From the NCBI GenBank assembly GCA_023539445.1, contig JAKCEW010000002.1, positions 1-64,000 on the forward strand: a DNA stretch of 64,000 nt. The letters run 5' to 3'. Both the position numbers and the translations under genes were made by a program. This document shows, piece after piece, positions 12,301 to 19,583 of the stretch. Every line of letters begins with the position of its first letter. The stretch's first letter is position 1. The notes beneath the pieces were generated by a model. The model ran no database searches. It was not told the origin of the DNA and saw only the letters and a list, made by a program, of their open reading frames with translations. This DNA is from Candidatus Terraquivivens yellowstonensis. Lineage in GTDB: Archaea; Thermoproteota; Nitrososphaeria_A; Caldarchaeales; Wolframiiraptoraceae.

Positions 12301-12643
12301 AGTCTTTTTCTACAAATTGTCATAAACAGGCGCATCATTAAACCTTTACGGGAATCTTAGCCGAAAACCTGCCGCCCCTTGGCCGGTAAACTTCAGGATG
12401 GTATGCGGGGTATTAGGATACCAAGGCAACCCGTATATGGCGCCTCTATAGACGGAAAGGCATCCTTACACCCTGTCGTTTTAGAATTTGCCATTATAAA
12501 CGTCTTCGTATCCCGATTCAAAAATAAAAAGACTTTCTTGAAAAACCGAGGCTATATAGAATTTTTTAGCCCAAAATAAGCCATATAAAAGGAAATCTTT
12601 GGAACAAAAACGTTAAAGCGTCCGGGCGGTATTAGAGCCTTGG
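12301..12643. other. 343-bp stretch without a convincing gene
   Basis: A plus-strand ORF (12379-12579, TTG start) covers part of it, but has no recognisable domain or ribosome binding site. The left part is GC-rich (12360-12480) and the right part AT-rich (12500-12610, with taagccatataaaagg, a plausible TATA for the small ORF downstream). I looked for the conserved cores of SRP RNA, RNase P RNA and tRNA and did not find them. A non-coding RNA or gene remnant in the GC-rich part remains possible. Confidence 0.4.
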
Positions 12644-12652
12644 GTGATTATT

Positions 12653-12874
12653 ATGTTGAACCTAACGAGCATAATAATAGAGTCCGCAGTATTCTCGATC
12701 ATCCTGATAACCCTATGGATGAGTGCTGAGAGGTTAGTGCCCAAACTCTCGGCAGCCCTTAAGGAAATCATAAGGAGGCGCCGTAAGGCTAAGTATAACA
12801 ATAACCACAAGAGGAGGCGCAGGTCTTCATCGCTAGTGGTAGGGCCGAGCGTGCCACACTTCTGGAATAGGTAG
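12653..12874 (+). CDS. Possible small membrane protein with an arginine-rich tail
   Basis: A small ORF of about 73 aa from ATG 12653, preceded by ggtgat at a ribosome-binding distance; the track version starts at GTG 12644. Residues 5-25 form one hydrophobic helix. A strongly basic cytosolic-type segment follows (EIIRRRRKAK, then HKRRRRSSS). Such a hydrophobic helix plus poly-basic tail could bind nucleic acid or membrane lipid at the inner face. No family was recognised. It lies just upstream of the SMC operon on the same strand, but 235 bp separates them. Confidence 0.4.
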   Translation: MLNLTSIIIESAVFSIILITLWMSAERLVPKLSAALKEIIRRRRKAKYNNNHKRRRRSSSLVVGPSVPHFWNR

Positions 12875-13108
12875 TTATACCGATTTTATGGTAAAACACG
12901 CAAGTAATGTCTTGCGCAACATAAATTCGCCGGCAAAATAACGCTCTGTTAATCGTAGTTTGGACGTTGCACGGCATCTGTCATATTATGGCCAACGATG
13001 CGGCATTTGGCATCCTTAAAGTTTGGTGCGTCATGGCCTTAAGCCTCTTTACGGTAAACCCAAATATATTGCGGTTAAAATCAAAGGCAAGGGAGGAGAA
13101 CCCTTAAA
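12875..13108. other. Leader region of the SMC-like operon
   Basis: A 234-bp non-coding stretch. It contains a short hairpin-like repeat (acgcaagtaatgtcttgcg, 12899-12917), an AT-rich caaatatattgcgg at 13059-13072 that could be a TATA box, and a strong Shine-Dalgarno gggaggag (13091-13098) ten bases before the GTG of the SMC gene. No RNA gene was recognised. Confidence 0.45.
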
Positions 13109-14896
13109 GTGGAAAATACAGACGAGCGCTCCGCGGGAAAGCTTGAGCTGGAGGAGAGGGTAAAATCTGTACCGCACATAAAGGAGGTAATTCTAGAGAA
13201 TTTCATGTCCCATGAATACTCTAGGATACCGCTAAAACCGGGTCTTAACGTCATAATGGGGCCTAACGGTGCTGGAAAATCCTCAATACTTCTCGGGATA
13301 TCCGTCGCCCTCGGCCAGACCTACACGGAGAGGGGTGAACGATTAAGTGACCTCATACGTCGTGGGAAAGATGTGGCTAGGGTCACTGTTGTGTTCAACA
13401 ACAGTGCACATAACGGCAAAAGACCATTCAGAACTATAAACACGGACACAGTATCCATCGCCAGATACCTCAAGAGAAACGGAGACTACTGGCATTACGT
13501 GAACAACAGATTCATGACGAAGGCTGAGGTCGAGCACTTGCTTAAGCAGGTGGGCATAAACCCCAACAACATGCTCATAATAATGCACCAGAATATGATA
13601 GAACAGTTCGTAACAAAAAGCAGCGTTGAAAAGCTCCAGATGGTCGAGGACGCCGTAGGTGCATCGAAGCTTAGGGAGAGGATAATAGATGCCGAGGCCA
13701 AGCTGAACATGTTGCTTACAGAAGAAGCGGGCCTCAAGAAAACTCTGGAGGAAGCAAGGGCGACAGTTGAATATTGGAAGGAAGAGTACGGGAAGCTAGT
13801 AAAGCTCAGAAGGCTTGAGAACCATAGGGTTGAGCTTGAGCGTGAGCTTGCTTGGTCTCAAGTAATAGCTCTAGAGAACGATGTAAAGAGGATTGAGGAT
13901 AAAATATCCTCCCTCATCTTAGAGATTGAGGATCTAAACAAAGAAGCTAAAGAGCACGAGTTAAAAGCTGGAGCTTTACGTGAGGAGATCCGCGGAGCGG
14001 TACACCAATTAAAAGGAGCGGGACCTCAAACATCCGAAGCTTTGGACGATTTGGAAAAAAGGATAGATAGGCTGATAGACGAACTCGTTGACGAAAAGGT
14101 GCAAGAAGGAATTGCAAGGTTCAAGATACGCTTAACAGAATCCGAGATGAGAAAGCTAAAGTCTCAGTTAAGCGAGCTGAAGACGAAGCTTGCCTCTCAG
14201 CTGTCTGAGGCTGAACTGAAAGGGCCTCGTGTCGAGACTAACAGAAAACCAATGGAAATCCAAGAAGATTTGAAGATCTTAGAAGTTCAAATAAACTCTT
14301 TGGGTAGCGTAACGCCCAATGCTGAAGAGATGTACCTCTTAGCGGATGCTAAGTATAGCGAGGTCGAGATGAAGGCCAAGCAGCTCTCTGAGAACATAGA
14401 AAAGGCAAAGGAAGAAGTTGAGCGTAGGAAAGAAGTTTGGAGGGAGTTCCTAAGGAAGCTTATGTCGGAGGTCGAGCCGGCTTACATCCAAATACTAAAA
14501 TCTGTCGATGCGAACGGCAAAATATCTTTACGCAACCTGGAGGATATTGAGAAGGCATCCCTTGACCTTTATGTTGGCTTCAGGGGTGTCGAACCTGTCC
14601 TCCTAGACTCCCACACACAGAGTGGTGGTGAGAGGATAGTAGCGACACTCGCTTTCCTTCTTGCGTTACAGAAGTACGTTAAATCACCATTCAGGGCTGT
14701 TGATGAATTCGACGTTCACTTGGACCCGCTCAATAGGGAGAGAATGGTAAAGATGTTGACGGCAACCGCCAAGGCCGATCCGTACGTCCAGTATATAATA
14801 ATAACGCCGGGTTACATAAACGTGGGCGAGGATGCGAACGTAATCATCGTCCAAAACGTAAGCGGAAAGTCATCCGTAGGTGTGGTAGAAAGGTAA
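13109..14896 (+). CDS. Short hinge-less SMC ATPase with Smc5/6-type head motifs
   Basis: A 595-aa SMC-superfamily ATPase. The N-terminal head has ENFMSHEY and Walker A GPNGAGKS (51-58), and the Q-loop is around H160-Q161. Coiled coil runs about 185-300 and 310-460. The distal motif LGSVTPNAEEMY (398-409) matches the conserved 'LGxVNxxAxxEY' region of SMC C-terminal coils. The C-terminal head has signature QSGGER (504-509), Walker B VDEFDVHLD (531-539) and IITP (564-567). DEFDxxxD and the ITP motif are typical of Smc6/Smc5 heads rather than Smc1-4 or bacterial SMC, which have DExDAxLD. There is no room for an SMC hinge and no CxxC zinc hook; the turn is near GAGPQ (303-307). The start is GTG with a strong Shine-Dalgarno. 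It is followed after 6 bp by a kleisin-like gene. Crenarchaeal coalescin-type SMCs are the alternative family to test. Confidence 0.85.
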   Translation: MENTDERSAGKLELEERVKSVPHIKEVILENFMSHEYSRIPLKPGLNVIMGPNGAGKSSILLGISVALGQTYTERGERLSDLIRRGKDVARVTVVFNNSAHNGKRPFRTINTDTVSIARYLKRNGDYWHYVNNRFMTKAEVEHLLKQVGINPNNMLIIMHQNMIEQFVTKSSVEKLQMVEDAVGASKLRERIIDAEAKLNMLLTEEAGLKKTLEEARATVEYWKEEYGKLVKLRRLENHRVELERELAWSQVIALENDVKRIEDKISSLILEIEDLNKEAKEHELKAGALREEIRGAVHQLKGAGPQTSEALDDLEKRIDRLIDELVDEKVQEGIARFKIRLTESEMRKLKSQLSELKTKLASQLSEAELKGPRVETNRKPMEIQEDLKILEVQINSLGSVTPNAEEMYLLADAKYSEVEMKAKQLSENIEKAKEEVERRKEVWREFLRKLMSEVEPAYIQILKSVDANGKISLRNLEDIEKASLDLYVGFRGVEPVLLDSHTQSGGERIVATLAFLLALQKYVKSPFRAVDEFDVHLDPLNRERMVKMLTATAKADPYVQYIIITPGYINVGEDANVIIVQNVSGKSSVGVVER

Positions 14897-14902
14897 TGCG
14901 GT

Positions 14903-15694
14903 ATGTCTCATGAAAGAAGAACTGTAAATAGGGAGGAGCTTGAAAGGATAATAGCGCTCTGCGAATCTATCGAGAAAAGGGGTCTGGACCCGTTCTCGGT
15001 CAATGTGAAGGAACTTCTAATGAAGCTAAGGCGCATATTGGAAGAGCAGAAAGATTTAGAGATAATAATCCTCGATGCTGAGACGCTCTACAAGATAGCG
15101 GTCCTAATATCGCTGCAACAAAAGTGGTTGAAAGAAAGGGCATCATCGCTTTTCATAGATAGTCAGCTCGTATCGCTCAAAATAACCTCTGCCGAACCAA
15201 AGCAGTTGGCTGCGGCGCTCGCTAGGAGCTGGAGACCCATCGTCAGGGCTGAGCAACTTACGCCTTACAGAGTAAGGCAGGGTATGGAATACTTTTTGAT
15301 GTTGCCTCCTAGGGATAGGGCCTACGAGAAGCTTCCGACAGCGCAAGAGGAAGCATTACGCATCCTAAAGGGAGCAGAGTATGCGAAGGATGTAGTGTTG
15401 GAGGATGAAGTGAGAAAGATGCATGAAAGGTGCATTATGGCAGCAGGGAGCGATGGCGAAGTAGATTATTGGTCCATAGTAAGCGCCGACACATTTGAGG
15501 AGACTGTATGGAGGGCCTATGTACTCAGCTTCGTCATCAGCGAGGGATTAGCAGATATAAAGAAAAATCCCCTTACGGGTGAGATAAAGGTAGTGCCTTA
15601 TCCTTCAAAGCGTACGAGAGAGAAGGTAGCCGCATTCGTAATCTCCTTAAAAAGCGGGGAGGTGCCAAAGGCTCTTGGAAGAGAAAAGGAATGA
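14903..15694 (+). CDS. Kleisin-like partner of the SMC ATPase (ScpA/Nse4-like candidate)
   Basis: A 263-aa, mostly helical protein. The N-terminal segment (GLDPFSVNVKELLMKLRRIL, 27-46, and the helix through LISLQQKWLKERASSL) resembles the ScpA N-terminal domain. In ScpA, 'LDP..i.i..L...L' and a following helix bind the SMC neck. The middle 90-180 is low in recognisable features, as linkers in kleisins are. The C-terminal 185-235 has a winged-helix pattern (VWRAYVLSFVISEGLADIKK with a 'GEIKVVPY' wing), where kleisins bind the SMC cap. The call rests on this pattern plus position between an SMC gene and a KITE-like gene; sequence identity alone would be weak. Its last 20 bases overlap the next gene. 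Confidence 0.6.
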   Translation: MSHERRTVNREELERIIALCESIEKRGLDPFSVNVKELLMKLRRILEEQKDLEIIILDAETLYKIAVLISLQQKWLKERASSLFIDSQLVSLKITSAEPKQLAAALARSWRPIVRAEQLTPYRVRQGMEYFLMLPPRDRAYEKLPTAQEEALRILKGAEYAKDVVLEDEVRKMHERCIMAAGSDGEVDYWSIVSADTFEETVWRAYVLSFVISEGLADIKKNPLTGEIKVVPYPSKRTREKVAAFVISLKSGEVPKALGREKE

Positions 15695-16274
15695 GGTCGA
15701 GCGAGCAAGTAAGAAGATAGCAATAGCTGCTAGTATGCTTCTCTTCTCAAGCCATAGGCTTCCAGGCGTCAGGGGCTGGGAGCTACGTAGGAGGTTGGGC
15801 AAAGATTATCTCAAGATAATTGATGCGCTGAATAATAAACTGAACAGCATAGGTCTCAGAGTAAAGATAATGTTCGACCAACCATCGGGCGAACATCCAG
15901 CTCAGGACGACTTTGACAAAGCTAGATTCTTCATAACACTCTCCGAACCGCTCACAGTCGCCGATATAGTGGCCGCAGGTTGGAGCATAGAAGATGTGGC
16001 AATATTGGCTGCTGTGCTCTCTTATATTTTCACGAAGGGTGGTAAGGCTACTGAGAAGGAACTAATGGAGCTTCTAGAGGTAAAGTTCCCAAGATGGAAG
16101 GTGGAGGCAGCCATAGAGCGGTTTATCAGGAAAGGGTACCTTACGAGAATTGAGGATAACATGATAAAGGTTGGATGGAGAACTTTGGCGGAGGTGGATG
16201 AAAAGGAGTTGTTAAAGGCTATAACGGACATCACTCCGTCGCAACCAAAGGAAGATAATAAAGAGAATATCTAG
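15675..16274 (+). CDS. Nse3/MAGE-like tandem winged-helix (KITE) protein
   Basis: A 199-aa protein with two predicted winged helices, about 14-90 and 105-175. The second carries VAILAAVLSYIFTKGGKATEKEL (108-130), which strikingly resembles the MAGE homology segment (L-x-I-L-x-x-I-F-x-K-G-x-x-x-S/T-E-x-x). The tail (176-199) is polar. KITE proteins (ScpB, MukE, Nse1, Nse3) bind kleisin linkers in SMC complexes. The start is TTG at 15675 inside the kleisin-like gene. The stop overlaps the convergent Nudix gene by 4 bases. An alternative is a ScpB-like protein, but the second-domain motif reads more like MAGE. Function is inferred. Confidence 0.6.
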   Translation: MEEKRNEVERASKKIAIAASMLLFSSHRLPGVRGWELRRRLGKDYLKIIDALNNKLNSIGLRVKIMFDQPSGEHPAQDDFDKARFFITLSEPLTVADIVAAGWSIEDVAILAAVLSYIFTKGGKATEKELMELLEVKFPRWKVEAAIERFIRKGYLTRIEDNMIKVGWRTLAEVDEKELLKAITDITPSQPKEDNKENI

Positions 16275-16721: not shown

Positions 16722-19583
16722 TTATTTGAATGCCGAAATCAGCTTTTTCTTCTCCTCCTCGATTATGTATTGTATCAACCTATTCGTTAAACCTCCCTCT
16801 TTCTCTAAGACCCTAGCAGCGTCATTTACAGTAAAACCTTTCCCCGATAGTGCCACGAGTGCTGCCTTTCCATACTTCTCTACTAAAATCGAACTCTTCT
16901 CTATTTCCTTAAGGAGCTCCTTCTCCCTTCTGCTTATAGGCTTGCCCTTTCTAGATATCAGGCCGTAAATATCCTCCACCTCACCTCTCACGAAGCCAAG
17001 TTTTCTTGAGCCACATGCAGGACAAGATGGTCTTTCATCAACATCCTTGATAACCACTTTGTCAAAGTACTGATAACAGTCAGAACATACAAGAACGCCT
17101 GTCTCGTTCATCAATCTGGCCCTAACTGCCATCAATACCAATCTTTCAATTCTATCTGAAGATACTGTTTCGTAGGCCTCTTGGTAGCGTCTGAGCGTGA
17201 GCAACGCTAGAGGTGAGGGAGTTATGGTATCAGATGGCGAGTATATTGTAAGTTCATAATTTCCCATAGATATTGAGCGGAGAAGCTCATAAGCACCGTA
17301 CTCGTCAAAATCTTGGAACAGACAATAGGACATCGCCTCATCATAAACCACAGTACCTTTCAGCACTTCAGCGATCTTCGAGAGGTTGACGTCAAGTATG
17401 CTCGCTTCTTTGCTGACGACGCCCATTTTTCTTGCCACATGAACTAGCCTCCTCCTGAATAGCGTCGACCCTTCTATAGCTTTTCTTAAGACCTCTCCGA
17501 AGGCCCCTTCGGATAAAATCTTTAAGGCCTCGAGTACGAGCTCTGGATAAACGTGCTTTGACCTTATGACAATTCTGTAAGGGTCTTGCTGAACGGCGAT
17601 TGGCATTCCAATCTTTTCGGATATTAAGAACGAAATAACCTTGGCCAAAGTCCTGTTTATTCTAAGCCCTCCGTGTATGTGTATCACCGTATAGTCCCCT
17701 GCCTTTTCCACAACGATCCTCTTGTTCGTAGGCACGGGTATCCCTGAGTTGATGTGCGCCCTAACCTCAGACATACTCCTTGAGATGACCTCCTCCGAAA
17801 CGCCGTATCTCTTAGCTATATCGGTGCAGATGACATCATGCGGCTCGCCTCCGCGAAGACGTTCCTCGTACTCTGCCCTTAGGCTACCGACCTCTTCTGC
17901 AACCTCGTATGGAACCGGTATCTCGTCGCCTACCCACGAAGGTACGGCACCTTCATATTCATCCAACTTCCTGACGTAAATCTTCTCACCGAGTGTGCTG
18001 AGAATCTCCCATGCCTTACCTAGCAGTATGAACCTCGTCCCAGGTTCACCATACTCAGCGACGAACTCTTCATCCAATATACCTACAGGCTCTCCCGTGC
18101 TTTCTTGAATAACTAAGTACTGTCTCTCCTCGGGTATCATGGAAAGGTTTCCGAAATAGTAATCATAAAGTGGCTTAGAATTGATAGGTTTCCAGAAATA
18201 ACCATCGTCGGTAAGCACACAAATATTCAATCCCCTCATATGCTCAAGGACCCTTAGTAGCGTGTGCCTGTCAAGTTCTGAGAAGCTGTATGCCCGCCTG
18301 AACATTCTCAAAGCGTCTTCGATATTAACACGGCCGTACTCTATCAGGAGTCCGGCCAGTTGGTGCATTAAAACATCGAGGGAGTTCATGGGTATTCTGA
18401 CATCTTCCAGCCTCTCCTCCAACGCTCTCTTGGCTATGACTATGGACTCGAGAGCATCATCCGAATCCATAACCAGTATGACGCCTTTCGCTATCTTCCC
18501 TATGCTGTGACCGCTCCTGCCGACCCTTTGTATGAGCCTCGTCACTTCTCTGGGCGAGTTGTACTGTATGCAGAGGTCTATCCTGCCCACGTCTATGCCG
18601 AGTTCCAAAGATGATGTGCAGACTATGCCAAGTAGCGTACCGGCCTTTAAGCCCTGTTCGGTTGATATCCTTGCGGACTTTGCTAGTGAGCCGTGATGTA
18701 TGCCCACGCTGAAGCTCTCGTCCCATGCCCTAAACCTGTTCGTCAATATTTCTGCCAAAGGTCTTGTATTCGTGAATATCAGCGTCGAACCATGCGATTC
18801 TACGAGTCTCCTTATCGTCCTAAGCCTAGATGCTACATCTGGCATAATGGCGAGTTCCTCGGCCAGTACGACGTCTTCATCTTCCGGCACAGGATAGAGG
18901 ACGTCTATTTTCATACCCTTGGCTACGGGAACCCTTACGATCTCGCAATCCCTTCCTGGCCCGACTAAGAATTTTGCTATGGTCTCAGGACTGCCGATTG
19001 TGGCTGATAGGCCAATCCTCTGGAACTCGGAACCAACTATCTCCAACAACCTTTCAAGTGCTATGGAGAGTTGCGCGCCTCTCTTATCTGTGGCAAGTTC
19101 GTGCACTTCGTCAACGATGACCCATTTTATACCTTTTAAATGCTTTCTGAGAACCTTTCCGCATAGGATTGCTTGGAGCGTCTCAGGGGTTGTTATCAGT
19201 ATATCTGGAGGTATGAGGGTTTGTGTCCTTCTCTCCGCAACCGCAGTATCTCCGTGCCTAACGGATACTTTGATATCCAGTCTCTTTGCCCACCAGTCAA
19301 ACCTTTCCAACATGTCCCTATTGAGTGCGCGAAGCGGCGTTATGTAGAGCGCCTTTATTCCTGGAAGTCCAGGATTTTGCAGTAAATTGCTAAGTATAGG
19401 TAGGAGGGCTGCCTCTGTCTTTCCAGTACCAGTCGGTGCCATTAGCAACAGGTTTTTACCCTCCAGTATCTTCGGTATGCTTTCAATCTGGGGTGGAGTT
19501 AACTCTCCGAACCTTTCGACGAAAGCTGTCCTGACAGGTTTCGCCAATAGTTCCAACACGTCCTCGCTTGTTAGGTCACCCAC
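16722..19583 (-). CDS. lhr: Lhr-type large superfamily 2 DNA helicase
   Basis: A 953-aa helicase. RecA1 has APTGTGKT (49-56) and DEVH (158-161); the SAT motif LSATIG follows. RecA2 contains RLIQRVGRSGHS. The winged-helix and Lhr-specific domains come next (about 420-830). C-terminal residues include a CxxC...CPAC zinc-binding site (VCSDCYQYFDK ... SCPACGSRKLG) before the last ~80 residues. Lhr is a 3'-5' DNA helicase of the Ski2-like group linked to replication-coupled repair and recombination in archaea. The start is ATG. Nudix and lhr share a strand and a 4-bp gap. Confidence 0.93.
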   Translation of the reverse strand: MGDLTSEDVLELLAKPVRTAFVERFGELTPPQIESIPKILEGKNLLLMAPTGTGKTEAALLPILSNLLQNPGLPGIKALYITPLRALNRDMLERFDWWAKRLDIKVSVRHGDTAVAERRTQTLIPPDILITTPETLQAILCGKVLRKHLKGIKWVIVDEVHELATDKRGAQLSIALERLLEIVGSEFQRIGLSATIGSPETIAKFLVGPGRDCEIVRVPVAKGMKIDVLYPVPEDEDVVLAEELAIMPDVASRLRTIRRLVESHGSTLIFTNTRPLAEILTNRFRAWDESFSVGIHHGSLAKSARISTEQGLKAGTLLGIVCTSSLELGIDVGRIDLCIQYNSPREVTRLIQRVGRSGHSIGKIAKGVILVMDSDDALESIVIAKRALEERLEDVRIPMNSLDVLMHQLAGLLIEYGRVNIEDALRMFRRAYSFSELDRHTLLRVLEHMRGLNICVLTDDGYFWKPINSKPLYDYYFGNLSMIPEERQYLVIQESTGEPVGILDEEFVAEYGEPGTRFILLGKAWEILSTLGEKIYVRKLDEYEGAVPSWVGDEIPVPYEVAEEVGSLRAEYEERLRGGEPHDVICTDIAKRYGVSEEVISRSMSEVRAHINSGIPVPTNKRIVVEKAGDYTVIHIHGGLRINRTLAKVISFLISEKIGMPIAVQQDPYRIVIRSKHVYPELVLEALKILSEGAFGEVLRKAIEGSTLFRRRLVHVARKMGVVSKEASILDVNLSKIAEVLKGTVVYDEAMSYCLFQDFDEYGAYELLRSISMGNYELTIYSPSDTITPSPLALLTLRRYQEAYETVSSDRIERLVLMAVRARLMNETGVLVCSDCYQYFDKVVIKDVDERPSCPACGSRKLGFVRGEVEDIYGLISRKGKPISRREKELLKEIEKSSILVEKYGKAALVALSGKGFTVNDAARVLEKEGGLTNRLIQYIIEEEKKKLISAFK

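Follow-up and report, generated by a model that had tools for sequence, protein, structure and literature searches.

The hinge is treated as a hallmark of SMC proteins: it joins the two motors and shuts the ring, and models of the entry gate and of loop extrusion are built around it. Here, we asked what kind of complex is encoded by an archaeal operon whose SMC-like protein, according to an initial annotation made from the sequence, has neither a hinge nor a zinc hook. The operon lies in a 64,000-nucleotide stretch of DNA from Candidatus Terraquivivens yellowstonensis, referred to below as the window.

Architecture of the short SMC protein

The gene in question (13109..14896, + strand, GTG start) encodes a 595-aa protein that its open reading frame, an SMC_N match (2e-39), a profile comparison with the PDB, and head-domain trees identify as a hinge-less SMC5/6-type ATPase. 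The features of the head, like all those of this protein located on the + strand, are (i) the Walker A motif GPNGAGKSS (residues 51-59; 13259..13285), (nearly) invariant in the orthologue alignment; (ii) the invariant ABC signature SGGER (residues 505-509; 14621..14635); (iii) the conserved Walker B/D-loop segment SPFRAVDEFDVHLD (residues 526-539; 14684..14725); and (iv) ITP at the H-loop position (residues 565-567; 14801..14809), which alignments show to be the same in yeast Smc5 and in human and yeast Smc6. The AlphaFold2 model (mean pLDDT of 87.6), built with 42 orthologues as input, is that of an SMC head with two short arms. The outgoing N-terminal arm is a single unbroken helix of 118 aa (residues 186-303; 13664..14017), about 17 nm long at 0.15 nm per residue, and is followed by a turn of five residues at the coil apex (304-308; 14018..14032), essentially where the initial annotation had put it (near residues 303-307). 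The returning arm comprises the helices 309-371, 381-397, and 405-464, about 156 residues in all; the initial annotation had given coils of about 115 to 150 residues. Within it, a distal coil (residues 309-371; 14033..14221) leads to a predicted SMC joint (residues 372-404; 14222..14320), recognized by its helix breaks and by the top Foldseek match of the model, the Pyrococcus Smc head-coil-joint construct 5xei, with Smc5/6 heads among the next matches; a head-proximal coil follows (residues 405-464; 14321..14500). The C-terminal coil piece that the annotation described as retained, LGSVTPNAEEMY (residues 398-409; 14300..14335), borders this joint and is indeed conserved in the alignment, with G399, V401, and E406 nearly invariant. 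The interval originally highlighted, 13995-14345, corresponds to codons ~296 to 412 and thus extends from the coil apex to the joint.

At the tip of the arms the model contains no globular domain, and profile searches agree with this. PF06470 (SMC_hinge) was not found at an E value of up to 10 among the families listed for the 42 aligned orthologues. This listing gives the top 25 of 218 families by frequency, so that hinge matches in up to three members would go unseen; PF06470 is also absent from the complete family lists of the window SMC and of ten further orthologues, the longest (up to 756 aa), which rules out a hidden hinge in the latter. The same profile does match full-length SMCs of the same phylum (1e-10 to 1e-24) and the hinged Asgard homologues described below (1e-10 to 1e-13). 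A stand-alone hinge elsewhere in the genome was likewise ruled out, as the sole PF06470 match (19 bits, below the cut-off) is the hinge region of a second, canonical SMC of 1,154 aa. A zinc hook is equally missing: the CxxC motif occurs in 0 of 23 orthologues checked, and the window SMC has no cysteine at all. Both absences claimed by the initial annotation therefore hold, and since the arms end in a plain turn, a hinge-closed ring is absent.

Family assignment and operon partners

The SMC-like label of the initial annotation is correct as regards the head but incomplete, as all three subunits of the operon resemble those of Smc5/6 (SMC5/6, Nse4, and Nse1/3). For the SMC itself, a search with its sequence alone retrieves yeast Smc5 proteins as the best solved relatives (8e-36), and the family profile compared with the PDB ranks SMC6 (9e-64) and SMC5 (2e-60) before bacterial SMC (2e-46). 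In head-domain trees, the hinge-less proteins are monophyletic, with support of 97.5/99 in the first tree and 98.6/100 in a second one calculated under LG+F+R4. In the latter, the hinge-less clade joins eukaryotic SMC5/6 with moderate support (88.7/93; the eukaryotes are represented by three SMC5/6 sequences), hinged Asgard homologues fall just outside this combined group (87.5/95), and canonical SMCs split from all SMC5/6-type groups at 99.9/100. Canonical SMC families score far below their cut-offs (TIGR02169, SMC_prok_A, 206 versus 729 bits; TIGR02168, 158 versus 567 bits). On these sequence comparisons, the window SMC is a member of the archaeal "SMC5/6-related" clade and not a generic SMC-like protein. 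Its genome contains one SMC5/6-type gene, the other full-length SMC being canonical, rather than the two SMC subunits that characterize Smc5/6.

Downstream of the SMC gene lie the two partners that the initial annotation had named, a kleisin and a KITE protein. The kleisin (14903..15694, + strand, 263 aa) is Nse4-like: Nse4_C (PF08743) was detected in 22 of 34 orthologues (best value 3.5e-7), and the kleisin profile matches Nse4 structures in the PDB (6e-5), in both cases within the C-terminal domain, whereas the window kleisin by itself gives a weak match (E value of 0.09). The KITE protein (15675..16274, + strand, 199 aa) resembles Nse1/Nse3 (MAGE), its orthologues matching MAGE at 2e-5 and Nse1 at up to 1.2e-4. 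Because the KITE sequence profile gave no match in the PDB, we turned to a fold search; the AlphaFold2 model consists of two winged helices in tandem, and nearly all of its best Foldseek matches are Nse1, Nse3, or MAGE proteins, headed by an Nse1-Nse3-Nse4 structure. The operon has one KITE gene, whose product contains no cysteine and hence no RING domain, and none of its genes encodes the Nse2 SUMO ligase that sits on the arm of Smc5/6. Among the orthologue loci, the order SMC-kleisin-KITE is retained almost everywhere.

Could the unusual length be trivial, or the family assignment misleading? That the SMC is an assembly artefact or a decayed gene missing an internal segment has next to no likelihood, its length being the only thing to recommend the idea. 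The check for a frameshift or deletion that the initial annotation proposed revealed neither: five species of the same genus have 595-aa versions with 85 to 93% identity, and profile searches recovered full or partial hinge-less orthologues in 178 genomes of two phyla: 157 of the 398 genomes drawn from the window's own phylum, and 21 of the 28 from the phylum to which a Hadesarchaea record belongs. The distant orthologues are collinear with the window SMC, and the Walker, signature, and D-loop motifs are invariant, a degree of conservation that already refutes decay. In-frame stops had been listed for several orthologues; in all seven genes that we re-checked, the reading frame runs uninterrupted from the start codon and the operon is intact, so the reported stops lie upstream of the starts. 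It is also highly improbable that the protein merely resembles SMCs and is instead a relative of the defence ATPases (Lamassu LmuB, MADS) or of ASRP/Rad50. ASRP (coalescin/Sph), Rad50, and LmuB do share SMC-superfamily heads with it, ASRP and LmuB share its short arms, LmuB being likewise about 650 aa long with short coils (PMC10586767), and the window SMC obtains 105 bits for MAD3 and 85 bits for LmuB in PADLOC and 72.6 bits for ASRP (NF045487) in NCBIfam. Yet the last value is far below the cut-off of 300, Rad50 families, whose cut-offs are 700 to 1,087 bits, give no more than 82, and both are surpassed by SMC_prok_A and by the family profile against SMC5/6 (200 to 219 bits). A zinc hook is present in most ASRP, in Rad50, and in many LmuB proteins, and Nse4 and KITE partners are absent from those systems, whereas the partners here are of the SMC type. 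The operon holds the kleisin and the KITE protein, not the Lamassu effector partners (LmuA/LmuC); PADLOC gave no match for the kleisin and a weak winged-helix match for the KITE protein. Moreover, the gene is retained through whole lineages, while defence systems are scattered, and we saw neither a sporadic, horizontally moving distribution nor an effector nuclease in the operon.

Hinged Asgard homologues and the coil tip

A search of 228 genomes from the phylum to which a Lokiarchaeota record belongs detected no hinge-less version. Instead, at least four genomes of this phylum encode Asgard homologues of 831 to 841 aa (L098 to L101) in the order SMC-kleisin-KITE, with profile matches to all three subunits, and in a fifth, an ORF with the same two neighbours is truncated by the end of its contig to 761 aa. 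These operons share the gene order of the window operon, but their SMC has longer arms and a hinge (PF06470 in all three homologues scanned). The family profile aligns to them as two pieces that flank the hinge, which occupies the position of the turn in the window SMC. A hinge in the same position in orthologues, which the initial annotation had named as evidence against its reading, thus occurs only in distant Asgard homologues, which speaks for an ancient hinge loss and not for an error of the annotation. An AAA+ ATPase gene with a lid domain overlaps the 5' end of the hinged SMC gene at the two Asgard loci checked (L099:7573-8964 and L100:8243-9628), and its product is perhaps an extra subunit or a remodeller. 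The same phylum also contains divergent SMCs of about 1,000 aa (L102, L103, L108) and 970 aa (L106, L107) with weak or unrecognized hinges, which branch near SMC5/6 with low support. A further Lokiarchaeota match, L070, was rejected, as it is a hinged SMC nearest to cohesin/condensin and bacterial SMCs and not of the SMC5/6 type.

Two questions follow for the apex of the coil, namely, how it arose and whether it still holds two SMCs together. On the first, the head tree suggests that the ancestor of the versions in Thermoproteota and Hadarchaeota probably lost the hinge and outer arm in one event, a single ancestral loss being simplest because hinged lineages surround the hinge-less clade. The opposite order, in which the SMC5/6 branch began without a hinge and its hinged members independently kept or reacquired one, is improbable; the hinge-less clade is old and spans two archaeal phyla, but the canonical SMCs, the Asgard homologues, and eukaryotic SMC5/6 around it are all hinged. 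On the second, the initial annotation held dimerization by a distal contact to be impossible, which is too strong, since the sequence allows a contact at the tip, even though conservation within the coil is lowest there and no other part of the coil varies in length. The SMC could dimerize distally after all, either by a short contact between coil tips, for instance as a four-helix bundle, or with the help of an unlinked partner, and so form a small closed ring. Self-association is frequent in coiled coils, the tip retains 29 to 44% hydrophobic residues, and an AlphaFold2 monomer model is blind to dimers. Nevertheless, we consider this arrangement unlikely. Column entropy at the apex, 2.3 to 2.7 bits, is the highest of the coil, compared with 1.2 to 1.8 bits over the greater part of the head-proximal coil and 0.3 to 0.9 bits in the ATPase motifs, and the sole indel site of the coil lies here, with insertions relative to the window SMC of up to 107 columns after residue 314 (both protein ends and two single columns were set aside in this count). 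An apex that varies in both length and sequence is unlike a conserved dimerization domain; the orthologues checked have no CxxC that could take its place, and the genome has no second hinge-like match that could supply it from elsewhere.

A putative DNA clamp beside the canonical Smc-ScpAB

Given the parts encoded, we think it rather probable, by analogy with yeast, that the operon specifies a hinge-less SMC5/6-type complex that works as an ATP-gated DNA clamp made of two heads, an Nse4-like kleisin, and a KITE protein. In yeast Smc5/6, the heads and necks assemble with Nse1-3-4 into a clamp around DNA, for which Nse4 serves as a scaffold and whose top is closed by Nse3 (PMC9191643); the window operon keeps all these types of parts, and the distal ring-closing part alone is absent. 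The single SMC gene would presumably provide a homodimer of heads, whose partners would be a kleisin resembling Nse4 and a KITE of the Nse1/Nse3 type, each from one gene. The short clamp closed by heads, kleisin, and KITE that the initial annotation envisaged is thus plausible. Two ATP-engaged heads would form the floor of the clamp, the kleisin would link the neck of one SMC with the head of the other, and the KITE protein, probably as a dimer, would close the top, such that a DNA segment is encircled as in yeast; ATP hydrolysis would then open the clamp. More tentatively, though as quite possible, we propose that this Smc5/6-type clamp is open, without any hinge contact, its heads being joined via ATP, kleisin, and KITE, and that it is sister to eukaryotic Smc5/6.

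This complex would act beside a canonical, hinged Smc-ScpA-ScpB in the same cell. Next to the gene of the 1,154-aa SMC mentioned above come a 172-aa ORF, located where ScpA would be expected, and then ScpB (131 bits); PF02616 gave no score on the 172-aa ORF, which we infer to be ScpA from its position. Because this separate operon is present, the window operon encodes an additional complex and not the cell's Smc-ScpAB. The two have in common the SMC-kleisin-KITE layout, which is that of bacterial and archaeal Smc-ScpA-ScpB in general, and homologous heads, but the canonical SMC has a hinge, and the partners of the window SMC are neither ScpA nor ScpB. In a related genome, a canonical SMC of 1,305 aa (L052:6655-10572, − strand) contains an intein-splicing domain in its N-terminal part.

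As to function, it is the gene neighbourhood that suggests a role in DNA repair at forks or junctions as the most likely one, as the operon has retained its linkage to an Lhr-type helicase. This gene is the convergent neighbour in the window (16722..19583, − strand; identified through the Pfam assignment of the orthologue in L068). Of the 24 long non-Asgard loci, 13 have it beside the operon, and these come from more than one phylum. The retained linkage suggests a functional link with the operon; archaeal Lhr favours fork DNA (PMC7437997). The contig L068 (JASEGJ010000011.1) is titled Hodarchaeaceae but shares its phylum with the Hadesarchaea record, so that its label looks wrong.

The closest solved relatives of the window SMC, kleisin, and KITE are those of eukaryotic Smc5/6 (Smc5, Smc6, Nse1, Nse3, and Nse4), from which the archaeal system differs in lacking the hinge and the RING, in its much shorter arms, and in having one SMC and one KITE gene instead of two each. 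Archaeal "SMC5/6-related" SMCs were named from phylogeny by Yoshinaga and Inagaki (2021), as cited in Yoshinaga et al. (2022; PMC9389158), and they occupy the same branch as the window SMC, with eukaryotic SMC5/SMC6 and apart from canonical SMC; the 2022 text is silent on a missing hinge, an Nse4-like kleisin, or a KITE gene. Hinge-less and CxxC-less SMC homologues have been reported from marine metagenomes, but these are bacterial (annotated to Actinomycetes), are not reported alongside a normal SMC or kleisin and KITE genes, and represent a separate occurrence (PMC12153180). In the literature covered, which does not extend to the 2021 paper and a 2024 preprint on SMC evolution, we found no description of archaeal SMC5/6-type proteins that lack a hinge and have Nse4- and Nse1/3-like partners; others may thus have remarked on the missing hinge before. 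A hinge-less Smc5/6-type complex beside a hinged Smc-ScpAB would be a natural experiment on which activities depend on the hinge; if the proposal is true, Smc5/6-type function would require neither a ring closed by a hinge nor any DNA transport dependent on such a ring. The compact complex (595 + 263 + 199 aa) would also be a good target for structural and single-molecule work, and the origin of eukaryotic Smc5/6 is touched upon as well, in that its three core subunit types already co-occur in archaea.

Some further observations concern the surroundings of the operon. Immediately upstream, about 800 bases (12301-13108) contain no ORF of 80 aa or more, and Rfam and tRNA scans of the window, this region included, returned no match. 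The window begins at the contig start, which cuts a Rad50-like gene (1-1256, − strand). In one genome, a gene for a Vps4/CdvC-like ATPase (MIT plus AAA; L050:4860-6002, − strand) adjoins the hinge-less SMC gene in divergent orientation.
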